From positions 1,984,001 to 2,048,000 of the forward strand of contig NZ_CP013200.1 of assembly GCF_001445575.1 (NCBI RefSeq): 64,000 nucleotides of DNA, written 5' to 3'. A model generated the notes under the pieces. That model searched no databases and was not told the DNA's origin. It saw nothing but the letters and a program-made list of their open reading frames with translations. Source of the DNA: Arthrobacter alpinus (GTDB lineage Bacteria; Actinomycetota; Actinomycetes; Actinomycetales; Micrococcaceae). Position numbers and translations under genes: made by a program. This document shows positions 60,988-64,000 of this stretch, in pieces (positions within the stretch are counted from its first letter, which is position 1; every line of letters begins with the position of its first letter).

Positions 60988-61418
60988 TCAGCTGGATGGC
61001 CGCGGCGTCCCGTCTACCGGGCGGGTGGCTAGGCGGAACAGGTCCAAGCGGTTGGCGGCCCCGGTTTTTCGCAGCATGTTTGAGATATGAGAGCCGACGG
61101 TCTTCTCGCTGACAACCAGAGTCCGGGCAATCTCACCGTAGGTGCGCCCGGCTACCACGTGGTCAAGAATCTCCCGCTCCCGGGGCGTTAATCCGGGGAG
61201 GACCTCGTAGTGGGACCGCACGGCAGCCACGGGGTGGCAATAGCGCGCTGGGTGTGGCCACGCAGCAGCACGGATTCAGTGCCCTGCAAACAACAATAAG
61301 TTTCCTCCCAGAGGAACTGCACACCTTGTTCGGCTGCGGCTGTCCACTGGGCTGCGTTGTCGCTCTCTGCCCTGGCACGTCCAACTTCCGCGGCATACCA
61401 GTGGTTGAAGGCAGCCAA
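60988..61418 (-). pseudogene. C-terminal remnant of a LuxR-family regulator
   Basis: Two overlapping segments in different frames match the end of a large LuxR-type ATPase regulator. The first (61418 to about 61220) reads FNHWYAAEVGRARAESDNA and LLRGHTQRAIA. The second (about 61230-60988) reads VLPGLTPREREILDHVVAG and SEKTVGSHISNMLRKTGAANR, the LuxR HTH. The N-terminal ATPase part is absent, and about 50 residues between the two blocks are missing. Decay, not a sequencing slip, is the best reading. It faces away from the tiny ORFs at 61.6-62.3 kb. Confidence 0.8.
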
Positions 61419-61633
61419 CTGCTCCCGCGGCCGTGCGTGTTGCGGAAGCAGGGAGGATGGTGATGCGAGAAGATCCCGGTTTGAAGGCGGGATTTCTGGC
61501 TCACAGAGACAACAAAAAGAAATAGTGAGAATTATTTCGATATTGACTGGATTTATGTAGACATTCTGCTGTAGCTTATCTAGTAGTCCCCGACGATTCG
61601 TCCGGGATGTCCGCGTGCAATTGAAGGGAGGCC

Positions 61634-61717
61634 ATGATGTTTAAAAATATCAAGTCCGGAATTATCGGATCTCATCATGCCTTTACTGGCACGCCCGACA
61701 ACCGCTGGCACATCTAA
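61634..61717 (+). CDS. Tiny ORF 1 (26-27 residues) with strong ribosome site
   Basis: GAAGGGAGG (61623-61631) precedes ATG ATG (61634, 61637). The peptide starts MFKNIKSGIIG, then SHHAFTGTP, and ends in WHI. The AT-rich DNA before it contains TTGACT near 61540. A TAGTCCCCG element lies at 61584-61592, as also before tiny ORF 3. No family is recognised; a leader, pheromone or bacteriocin precursor is possible but unproven. Confidence 0.5.
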   Translation: MMFKNIKSGIIGSHHAFTGTPDNRWHI

Positions 61718-62043
61718 CCACCGTCACAGCGTAGGGCCGCCACCGCAAGGCTGTTCGGCCAGTGCTGCATTTATGCGGCCACCTTCGGACCGATGATCCA
61801 GGTCATTCACCGCAATCACAGCTTCTAAATCTCTGCACCTCACATGCGTTGTGAGGGCTGAAACTGCTGCTTCTGTGGGAGCCCATAATTTCCCGGTCTG
61901 ATCAATTCGTACAAAACAAATCGCGCATTTTTGTGCTCTTATGACGCCATTTTTCGTTTATTCAATAAAAGAAAAGAAGGCTTTATTTGCCGCGCCCCAA
62001 TATGTCCATTTATTCACATCCAGCGTCGAAAGGAGGTGCCACC

Positions 62044-62175
62044 ATGAACCCCAAGCCCACTAAGTCTTCCATTAGGAGGATCTTCTTCGCGCCCGTGGAT
62101 CAGCAGAAGTTCAATGAGCTTCGCGAGCGTCAGTATCGCGAGATCATTCGAGTTGACCTCTTCAATATCCGGTAG
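62044..62175 (+). CDS. Tiny ORF 2 (43 residues) with perfect ribosome site
   Basis: GAAAGGAGG (62028-62036) lies seven nt before ATG. The product is basic and helical: MNPKPTKSSIRRIFFAPVDQ, with FNELRERQYREIIR further on and FNIR at the end. No Cys, no signal peptide. Codon use looks coding (GAG, CGC, ATC, CTC). The 330 bp between ORF 1 and ORF 2 are AT-rich near 61900-61990 and may hold a promoter. Not recognised. Confidence 0.55.
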   Translation: MNPKPTKSSIRRIFFAPVDQQKFNELRERQYREIIRVDLFNIR

Positions 62176-62233
62176 TCCCCGCTGCCGCTGAAGCGGTGCC
62201 GGCGACGGCGCCTCACTGAAAGGAGGCACCGAA

Positions 62234-62344
62234 ATGACCATTACACATTTCGATTACCTCATCCCGTGCCTGGGTGCAGAGCATCGTGCCCCTGGTGGAC
62301 ACCGTGAACAGCCCGTGCTGATAAGCACGGGCTGTTTCGTTTAA
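62234..62344 (+). CDS. Tiny ORF 3 (36 residues) ending in a terminator
   Basis: GAAAGGAGG (62218-62226), identical to that of ORF 2, lies seven nt before ATG. The peptide begins MTITHFDYLIPCLG and ends STGCFV, with two Cys. The last dozen codons are also the stem of the terminator at 62308, so either the peptide ends within it or the ORF is shorter in function. Not recognised. Confidence 0.45.
   Translation: MTITHFDYLIPCLGAEHRAPGGHREQPVLISTGCFV
62308..62341 (+). terminator. Terminator closing the tiny-ORF cluster
   Basis: ACAGCCCGTGCT (62308-62319) pairs perfectly with 62324-62335, loop GATA, followed by TTCGTTT on the plus strand. Confidence 0.88.
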
Positions 62345-62481: not shown

Positions 62482-63132
62482 ATGAACACCACCCTGCGCG
62501 ATGTGCGCTCACCCGGCTGGAGCGCCACTGATGCTCCTGAGACAATGGTTCTCTTCCTGCATGGTTTCGGTTCCAACGAGCACGATCTGCTCCAGCTAGC
62601 ACCTGCCCTGGGACTCGCGCTGCCGTGGGCCTCCCTACGCGCACCCCTGGATGTGGGCAATGGTGGTGCGGCATGGTTCTCAATTACCACTCCCGGAAAC
62701 CCCGACGCCGCCCCGGTGGAAGAAGCCACTGAGGCGATTTGGGCCTGGATTGATGAAAACGTGAACCCGGCGACCCGTGTTGTTCCCATCGGTTTCTCGC
62801 AAGGCGGGCTCATGGCCAGCCAACTTTTGCGCACCCGGCCACAGCGTGTGGTTGCGCCTGTGGTGTTGGGTGGATTTATTTTGGGTGCCGCGCAACCTGG
62901 CGATAGCCTTCTGCTTGAACAACGCCCTGCACTGTTCTGGGGACGCGGAGCCGAGGATCGGGTCATCGCCCCGATTGCCATCACGCGCAGCGGCGAGTTC
63001 TTGCCGGCGCACACCACGCTGACCGAGCACGTTTACCCAGGTCTGGCACATGGGATCAATGCGAGCGAACTTAGCGATGTCCGTGACTTCATCACTCTTG
63101 AAGTTGGTGCCCAGGTGGTGGCCTCGGCATGA
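62482..63132 (+). CDS. Alpha/beta hydrolase, carboxylesterase/phospholipase type
   Basis: 216 residues. AAGGAG precedes ATG 62482. FLHGFGSNEHDLLQLAPAL, nucleophile Ser in GFSQGGLMASQLL, Asp in WGRGAEDRVI and His in GLAHGIN complete the triad. Similar enzymes hydrolyse short carboxylesters. Its stop overlaps the next start (ATGA), so the two are coupled. Confidence 0.92.
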   Translation: MNTTLRDVRSPGWSATDAPETMVLFLHGFGSNEHDLLQLAPALGLALPWASLRAPLDVGNGGAAWFSITTPGNPDAAPVEEATEAIWAWIDENVNPATRVVPIGFSQGGLMASQLLRTRPQRVVAPVVLGGFILGAAQPGDSLLLEQRPALFWGRGAEDRVIAPIAITRSGEFLPAHTTLTEHVYPGLAHGINASELSDVRDFITLEVGAQVVASA

Positions 63133-64000
63133 GCGCGGCCTCCCCGTTTGAGATCGGCATCTTCACCTTTGGTGAACTGACCCGTGACGCGCACGGGCAG
63201 CCGATCGATCCCCTGACACGTACTCGCGACATCCTTGAGTGGGCACGGGTTGCTGATGCTGCAGGGTTAGATGTGTTCGGAGTAGGCGAGCACCACCGGG
63301 AAGACTTTGCTGTTTCTTCGCCCGCCGTGGTGTTGGCGGCGGCCGCCGCGCAAACCAAGAATATCCGCCTGACCAGCACCGTCACGGTGCTCTCCAGCGC
63401 TGACCCTGTTCGCGTGTTTGAAGACTTTGCAACGCTGGACCTTGTCAGCGGTGGACGTGCGGAGATCACAGCTGGCCGGGGCGCCTATGTAGAATCCTTC
63501 CCGTTGTTCGGCCAGAACTTGGAGCGTTATGACGAGTACTTTGAGGACCGGCTGGATCTGCTGCTGCGCATTCGCGATGAAAACCCCATCACGTGGAACG
63601 GCACCACACGCCCTCCTCTGATTGACGCTGGGGTGTGGCCGCGCCCGGCCCAAGCGGCACTTCCCATTTGGGCTGCCGTGGGCGGGACGCCTTCCTCAGT
63701 TGAACGGGCCGGACGGCTGGGCTTGCCGATGTATCTGGCCATCTTGGGTGCCCCGGAGCGTTTCGGCGCGCTGGCCCAGTTATATCGGCGCGCGGCACAA
63801 GAGGCCGGTCGGGAACCGGGGCAGATTGGCGTCACCTCGCACTTCTACGTGGAGGAAACCTCACAAGGTGCCAAGGACACGTTCTTCCCGCACTATTCCT
63901 CTTACATTGAGCAGAACATGCCGCGGGCTGGCAGGCTGGATCGCCCCGGTTTTGAGCATTGGGCCGGACCCCGCGGAGCACTTTTTGCGGGAAGTCCTGC
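63129..64000 (+). CDS. LLM-class flavin-dependent oxidoreductase, 3' end outside window
   Basis: At least 290 residues from ATG 63129, which overlaps the hydrolase stop. FEIGIFTFGELTRD, VFGVGEHHREDFAVSSPAVVLA, NIRLTSTVTVLSSADPVRVFEDFATLDLVS in successive blocks, and GRGAYVESFPLFG are typical of bacterial luciferase-like monooxygenases. They use FMNH2 or F420. The gene continues past base 64000. Confidence 0.93.
   Translation, partial: MSAASPFEIGIFTFGELTRDAHGQPIDPLTRTRDILEWARVADAAGLDVFGVGEHHREDFAVSSPAVVLAAAAAQTKNIRLTSTVTVLSSADPVRVFEDFATLDLVSGGRAEITAGRGAYVESFPLFGQNLERYDEYFEDRLDLLLRIRDENPITWNGTTRPPLIDAGVWPRPAQAALPIWAAVGGTPSSVERAGRLGLPMYLAILGAPERFGALAQLYRRAAQEAGREPGQIGVTSHFYVEETSQGAKDTFFPHYSSYIEQNMPRAGRLDRPGFEHWAGPRGALFAGSP

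Follow-up and report, generated by a model that had tools for sequence, protein, structure and literature searches.

An apparently empty stretch of about 770 bases in a 64,000-nucleotide window of the Arthrobacter alpinus genome (the whole stretch of DNA analyzed here, 1984-2048 kb) appears, from comparison with related genomes, to be a whole and conserved gene unit, with a folded mRNA from which a protein of 43 residues is made. Its parts, read 5′ to 3′, are a -10 box, the P0 hairpin, ORF1, the P1 and P2 hairpins with two GCGC elements, ORF2, ORF3, and a terminator (coordinates below are those of the window, plus strand unless marked otherwise). The comparison supports ORF2 as a selected protein, conserved initiation of ORF1, covariation of P0, P1, and P2, and a promoter-like box and terminator flanking the whole; it also supports a single-copy unit whose form is constant where its neighbors differ. 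On balance, and with somewhat better than even confidence, we read the stretch from about 61585 to 62343 as a self-contained transcription unit for a small soluble ORF2 protein, with a structured, ORF-bearing leader as its own control; ORF2 is the likely product, and ORF1 and the structured RNA the likely means of controlling it. The three ORFs and their Shine-Dalgarno (SD) sites can be read directly where a preliminary description of this DNA had put them, and that description was right to see a real, unexplained coding signal here: ORF2 is conserved and coding, and has no significant family match. A literature search found no description of the unit, and neither Arthrobacter nor "Micrococc" occurs in the accessible main texts of PMC8632094, PMC11109978, PMC2965389, and PMC11796252.

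The small protein encoded by ORF2

ORF2 (62044..62175) begins with the ATG at 62044, 7 nucleotides past the SD site GAAAGGAGGTG (62028..62038), and strong sites precede ORF2 in 28 genomes. A single-sequence search found ORF2 in 19 of 197 family genomes; a profile search had hits in 28 of 295 Micrococcaceae genomes, with one match in each, representing 4 of 32 genera and 19 of the 23 members of the window's genus, and its absence from the other 4 members indicates that it is dispensable. An order-wide draw returned ORF2 from 3 of 396 genomes, all three inside Micrococcaceae. A scan of named genomes gave 15 ORF2 loci, 13 of them titled Arthrobacter, Specibacter, Paenarthrobacter, Psychromicrobium, Renibacterium, or Micrococcaceae. 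The remaining two are Sporosarcina beigongshangi and Acidobacteria MAG records (L098 and L106); a Micrococcaceae cassette under such titles suggests that the records are mislabeled.

Selection on the protein is evident among the 19 genus members, where the last 36 codons give a pN of 0.22 and a pS of 0.61 and the three codon positions diverge by 0.29/0.14/0.50, a contrast that disappears out of frame; residues R12, F14, F15, P17, R27, N41, and R43 are invariant in 25 rows. ORF2 is almost certainly a real protein. Short ORFs are common and these match no family, as might be expected of chance ORFs in an intergenic remnant; we give that explanation practically no credence, as conservation, synonymous bias, covariation, and the strand control described below all speak against it, and for ORF2 it is already contradicted.

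By inspection of its sequence, the ORF2 protein is basic, with neither a membrane-length hydrophobic stretch nor a visible hydrophobic export signal, and so does not resemble the small hydrophobic membrane toxin of a type I toxin-antitoxin system. AlphaFold2 gives it a free N-end and one helix over residues 20-42 (mean pLDDT 76, pTM 0.38), a model consistent with a small helical protein and saying no more than that. There was no significant match in Pfam, NCBIfam, PADLOC, or (by profile) PDB; PADLOC matched none of the three ORFs up to an E value of 1, and thus points to no anti-phage defense protein among them, while the one PHROGs match, from a search with ORF2 and two long forms, was to ORF2 at a nonsignificant E value of 0.18. 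In the g26 genomes G145, G047, and G159 (L060, L061, and L064), an in-frame SD site and GTG upstream of ORF2 would extend its N-terminus.

The leader, its hairpins, and the terminator

The putative -10 box TAGCTT (61572..61577), the likely promoter of the whole unit, corresponds in relatives to the consensus pattern GTAnnTT; of the 27 genomes compared (all but G003), 25 match it. The best nearby hairpin lies 8 nt past this box in 15 of the 27, and a different hairpin is best in G017, G018, and G019; a sigma-70 scanner detected no promoter at the box. P0 (61586..61608), which is present in the predicted fold and whose expected place is the 5′ end of the transcript or close to it, has changes on both sides in 6 of 7 pairs (4.0 in shuffles; 30 of 500 as high), 25 cells changed on both sides (10.5 in shuffles, none of 500 as high; slid versions at most 10), and 12 pair types (11.3 in shuffles; 192 of 500 as high), so that two of five measures, pairs and types, are not beyond shuffles; the test used 20 rows, with G003, G096, G097, and G159 omitted as non-fitting, and the shuffles, here and for P1 and P2, leave shared descent in.

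The spacer between ORF1 and ORF2 carries two further hairpins. P1 (61909..61936, with a CGCGC loop) has 5 of 9 pairs changed on both sides and 88% of cells paired in 26 rows, the outermost pair being unpaired in 18 of them; its loop keeps GCGC in 24 of the 26, with G004 and G097 departing. P2 (61941..61986) has 5 of 8 pairs changed on both sides and 78% of cells paired, with one column pair unpaired in 20 of 26 rows. Together, P1 and P2 have 25 cells changed on both sides in 26 rows compared with 7.6 in shuffles (none of 500 as high; slid versions at most 14 cells), and 10 pairs changed on both sides compared with 5.1 (1 of 500). RNAalifold alone predicted the core of P1 and missed P2. The whole stretch folds more strongly than 20 shuffles (z -3.99), and the G+C content of 61900-62030 is 38% as opposed to 62% for the window. 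The element GGCTTTATTTGCCGCGCC (61979..61996) is a possible kissing partner of the P1 loop; its GCGCC is present in 26 of 26 rows, the rows themselves having been extracted by that motif, and G096 lacks it. The pattern GGCTTTATTTG(T/C)(C/T)GCGCC, 3′ of P2, has GCGC in common with the P1 loop, and the two could pair with each other; this GCGC-GCGC pairing hardly varies, so covariation is silent on it. Two other readings of these parts were rejected: i) that P1 is a repressor operator, since covariation of its arms is seen between genera and the strict pattern has a single place in each of G012 and G014 and none in G000, G022, or G145; and ii) that the CATAAT next to P1 is a second promoter, since, as we read the alignment, it forms the 5′ arm of P2 and varies along with it. 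Rfam reported nothing in the cassette at gathering score, the best match up to an E value of 10 being Thr_leader to part of the terminator (E 0.23).

ORF1 (61637..61717, 26 aa) is a candidate translated leader ORF preceded by the SD site GAAGGGAGG (61623..61631), of which GGAG is kept in 19 of 19 genus members. ATGs stand at 61634 and 61637, the second 5 nt past GGAGG; we take 61637 as the start because the first ATG is replaced in G004 (by ACG) and G013 (by ATC), and the second is intact in both. At a distance of 297-501 nt upstream of ORF2, 28 of 28 genomes have an SD-led ORF of 18-60 aa, a count that has no chance control and for which the second listed candidate was used in G000 and G050. 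The peptide is only weakly constrained, with pN/pS of 0.27/0.46 in a group of 9 genomes and of 0.13/0.38 and 0.19/0.26 in two groups of 4, and a shared DNA run, TGGCACGCC, is by our reading in different frames in different genome groups; ORF1 therefore looks like an obligatory place for ribosome loading under some peptide constraint. It has no significant match in Pfam or NCBIfam (best, 3-dehydroquinase at E 0.17). A possibly comparable arrangement is known from actinobacterial leader-ORF mRNAs such as that of the Corynebacterium ilvB-II uORF, where the accessible text (PMC10272879) describes a short translated ORF in a structured region before the main coding region; here, however, the main product is a 43-aa protein without a known family rather than a biosynthetic enzyme, and the unit ends in a terminator of its own.

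ORF3 (62234..62344, 36 aa) begins with the ATG at 62234, 7 nucleotides past the SD site GAAAGGAGG (62218..62226), and its stop (62342-62344) lies shortly past the terminator stem. Both the site and the start could be recognized in 21 of 28 genomes, with the start 20 to 58 nt past the ORF2 stop; of the 7 in which ORF3 was undetected, G022 still has ATGACCATTAC. The body of ORF3 varies and enters the terminator in more than one frame, so a kept ORF3 peptide was rejected; ORF3 looks like a ribosome-loading site without one. The intrinsic terminator itself (62307..62343), recognized in the sequence and in the predicted fold, has a 13-bp stem (62307-62319/62324-62336). By our reading, a perfect hairpin with a GCCC core lies behind ORF2 in 23 of 28 genomes and some hairpin in 27 of 28; a simple scanner did not list the A. 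alpinus hairpin, the T run of which is broken.

These comparisons separate several claims made of the cluster at the outset. Conservation of the frames with a synonymous bias is clear for ORF2, weak for ORF1, and lacking for the ORF3 peptide; the suggestion of leader peptides holds for part of the cluster, ORF1 being a likely leader. A pair of TAGTCCCCG copies had also been pointed out. Both are there (61584 and 62173; 0.22 expected in the window, with two copies in 2 of 100 shuffles), but the motif is not conserved: among 28 relatives, it is at both places only in G000 and at one place in G001, and it was rejected as a shared signal.

With so much structure, the RNA itself might be the active molecule: a dual-function sRNA that pairs with or titrates targets in trans, all ORFs, including ORF2, being secondary outputs. 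The covarying hairpins, one of them near the 5′ end, the terminator, the poorly kept ORF1 and ORF3 peptides, and the unrelated neighbors around 9 of 28 units (see below) would suit such an RNA, and the pN/pS of ORF2 shows a selected small protein, one mark of a dual-function sRNA. SgrS (PMC4021124) and VcdRP (PMC8672173), as far as the accessible texts describe them, are likewise short terminated RNAs encoding a tiny protein; they differ from the present unit, in which two or three ORFs have SD sites and covarying hairpins occupy a long spacer, and which the searches made found only in Micrococcaceae. Clear protein-level selection on ORF2, and the diverged ORF2s found across genera, stand against ORF2 as a secondary output, and the constraint on ORF2 makes a device of RNA only less likely. 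We thus consider the RNA-centered explanation rather unlikely, and prefer the protein-centered reading given at the outset; the RNA of the unit may have both roles, as RNA and as protein template.

Genomic setting and changes of place

A tblastn comparison of the flanks found a CCA tRNA nucleotidyltransferase or histidine phosphatase gene upstream, or a GT87-like gene or the gene following it (c2) downstream, of 19 of the 28 units. The CCA enzyme, histidine phosphatase, and GT87-like protein were named by Pfam, the GT87 match being just below the cut-off; c2 we take, by its look, to be a phytoene-dehydrogenase-type protein, and the genes shared between neighborhoods also include ones that look MurJ-, NUDIX-, and phytoene-dehydrogenase-like. 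The 9 units without family-typical neighbors (G000, G001, G010, G014, G016, G017, G018, G019, and G021; flanks examined over 1 to 2 kb for G016 and G018, and over 1.8 kb downstream for G000) are all from the window's genus. In the window's own genome (G000:C1, L119), the phosphatase gene is at 624185, far from the window, and the GT87-like gene starts about 125 bases behind it with no cassette between. The location of the cassette away from the family-typical site implies that the unit changed place in the window's genus, and since the new neighbors are unlike between groups, there were probably several moves, or the surroundings were rearranged later. No copy of the unit was found in the plasmids and phages searched.

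Within the window, an 80-aa frame on the minus strand (60988-61230) with a LuxR-type HTH (Pfam GerE, E 3e-16) looks like the remnant of a regulator, in agreement with the decayed LuxR regulator first described there; 62482-63998 on the plus strand hold a carboxylesterase-like gene followed by a luciferase-like monooxygenase gene, a pair also present behind the unit in G001. A position between LuxR remnant and hydrolase genes had been offered as part of the picture, and turns out to be incidental, 19 of 28 units having CCA, phosphatase, GT87-like, or c2 neighbors instead.

Its changes of place make it less likely that the unit controls any one neighbor in cis. A simple attenuator reading of the unit is disfavored, as the same regulated gene is not found past the terminator (typical neighbors in 19 of 28, none in 9 of 28). 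A related explanation would make ORF2 (or ORF1) a stalling peptide whose C-end, by the stop, acts within the ribosome to control the terminator or ORF3: similarity across genera peaks in the residues next to the stop, and in those genus members that have an ORF3, this ORF extends into the terminator. The arrest peptides TnaC (PMC8429421) and SecM (PMC10951299), to the extent covered by the accessible texts, share with ORF2 the keeping of residues beside the peptide end; unlike them, the present unit has no kept regulated gene downstream, and the ORF2 N-half and helix are kept as in an acting protein. With 9 of 28 units lacking family-typical neighbors there is no single downstream gene to control, ORF3 is both variably spaced from the ORF2 stop (20 to 58 nt) and undetected in 7 of 28, and invariant residues lie in the N-half of ORF2 too. 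Nascent-chain arrest or attenuation strikes us as quite improbable.

The neighborhoods also bear on whether the cluster might be a peptide signal or a RiPP/bacteriocin precursor set, a natural proposal for tiny, lineage-specific, fast-diverging peptides, three per locus, and one the preliminary description had entertained. It fares badly: no maturation genes (modification or protease), immunity genes, or export genes are shared in the 21 neighborhoods compared (where Pfam named only some of the genes); there is one ORF2 per genome; no recognized precursor family was matched in NCBIfam or Pfam, and PADLOC gave nothing significant; and for a pheromone, no hydrophobic export signal was seen and no receptor neighbor is kept. 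We hold a precursor or signal to be very improbable.

Diverged cassettes and a proposed mechanism

Other genera have cassettes of similar build behind the same phosphatase gene: an ORF1 with its SD site comes first, then a spacer, and last an SD-led ORF of about 39-57 aa whose final residues are a hydrophobic one and Arg/Lys. A defined scan behind the phosphatase gene found an ORF2-like ORF in 23 of 46 stretches and in 0 of 46 on the opposite strand: 6 of 11 stretches from g1, g26, g28, and g29, and 17 of 35 (opposite strand, 0 of 35) from eight other genera; in the control behind the CCA gene of other families, the count was 0 of 23 on the plus and 1 of 23 on the minus strand. Since the C-end rule was fixed after many ORFs had been seen, a fairer figure is the count of any SD-led ORF of 20-62 aa: downstream of the phosphatase gene, 39 of 46 stretches have one on this strand and 11 of 46 on the other (32 of 35 and 9 of 35 in the other genera), and for the CCA gene of other families the count is 3 of 23. 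A search downstream of the CCA gene that covered 1500 bases in each of 23 genomes from other families found nothing. A looser scan of 8 further stretches found g10-like ORF2s in three g20 genomes (two of them identical) and none in the other five.

ORF2 is quick to diverge, as a single g10 ORF2 matches 3 of 120 genomes, all g10; an all-genus alignment has 24% mean column identity with M1 alone invariant, and across genera the ORF2s are most similar just ahead of the stop. For the most distant of them, position and layout are part of the argument for homology. A broad alignment, searched against an order-wide draw, matched 11 of 248 genomes at E 0.01, 9 of them in the family at 2e-6 or better (all of these but G140 and G153 inspected); the matches in G332 and G037 (0.003 and 0.0065) are in long frames and look like chance.

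The frame of ORF2 extends upstream in g25, g31, and one g5 genome, where ORF2 forms the last part of a longer frame containing a GEF(I/V)M-like stretch, so the product may differ from the 40-aa form in some genomes. The g25 long form has no significant match (best, DUF7071 at E 0.046). At L122, L130, L140, L141, and L147 (g31, g25, and g5), the stretch upstream and in frame with ORF2 has a GEFIMxGSLT / ELIFSAPAVI-like motif, which recurs in g14, g18, g21, and G026 in frames that are separate or overlapping, without a significant family match.

We propose that a single transcript would start just 5′ of P0, which would shield its 5′ end; that ORF1 would be a translated leader, its translation setting the folding of the spacer or keeping transcription running through it; that P1-P2 and the two GCGC elements would set ORF2 initiation in cis, possibly through a bound factor or the basic ORF2 peptide itself; that ORF3 would be a terminal ribosome-loading site with little peptide function; and that ORF2 would act in trans through its basic N-terminal segment and one long helix, the C-end of which (a hydrophobic residue, then Arg/Lys last) would be the part kept even where the remainder diverges. 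A bolder version, which we put forward only as a long shot, is a family-wide Micrococcaceae RNA-and-peptide device, in which a kissing switch between the P1 loop and the GCGC element would be opened by the ORF2 peptide or an ORF1 ribosome, ORF2 would use its kept hydrophobic-Arg/Lys C-end to regulate a core machine (such as RNA polymerase or the ribosome), and the cassette would be movable whole.

The protein is short enough to be synthesized, and the unit small enough to be cloned whole, so that function is directly testable. If our reading is true, the cassette, which sits where the searched family libraries detect nothing, would add a small-protein family with a structured, ORF-bearing leader across several genera of a common soil family; and the combination of a fixed layout with fast divergence would make it a good case for studying how lineage-specific small proteins persist.
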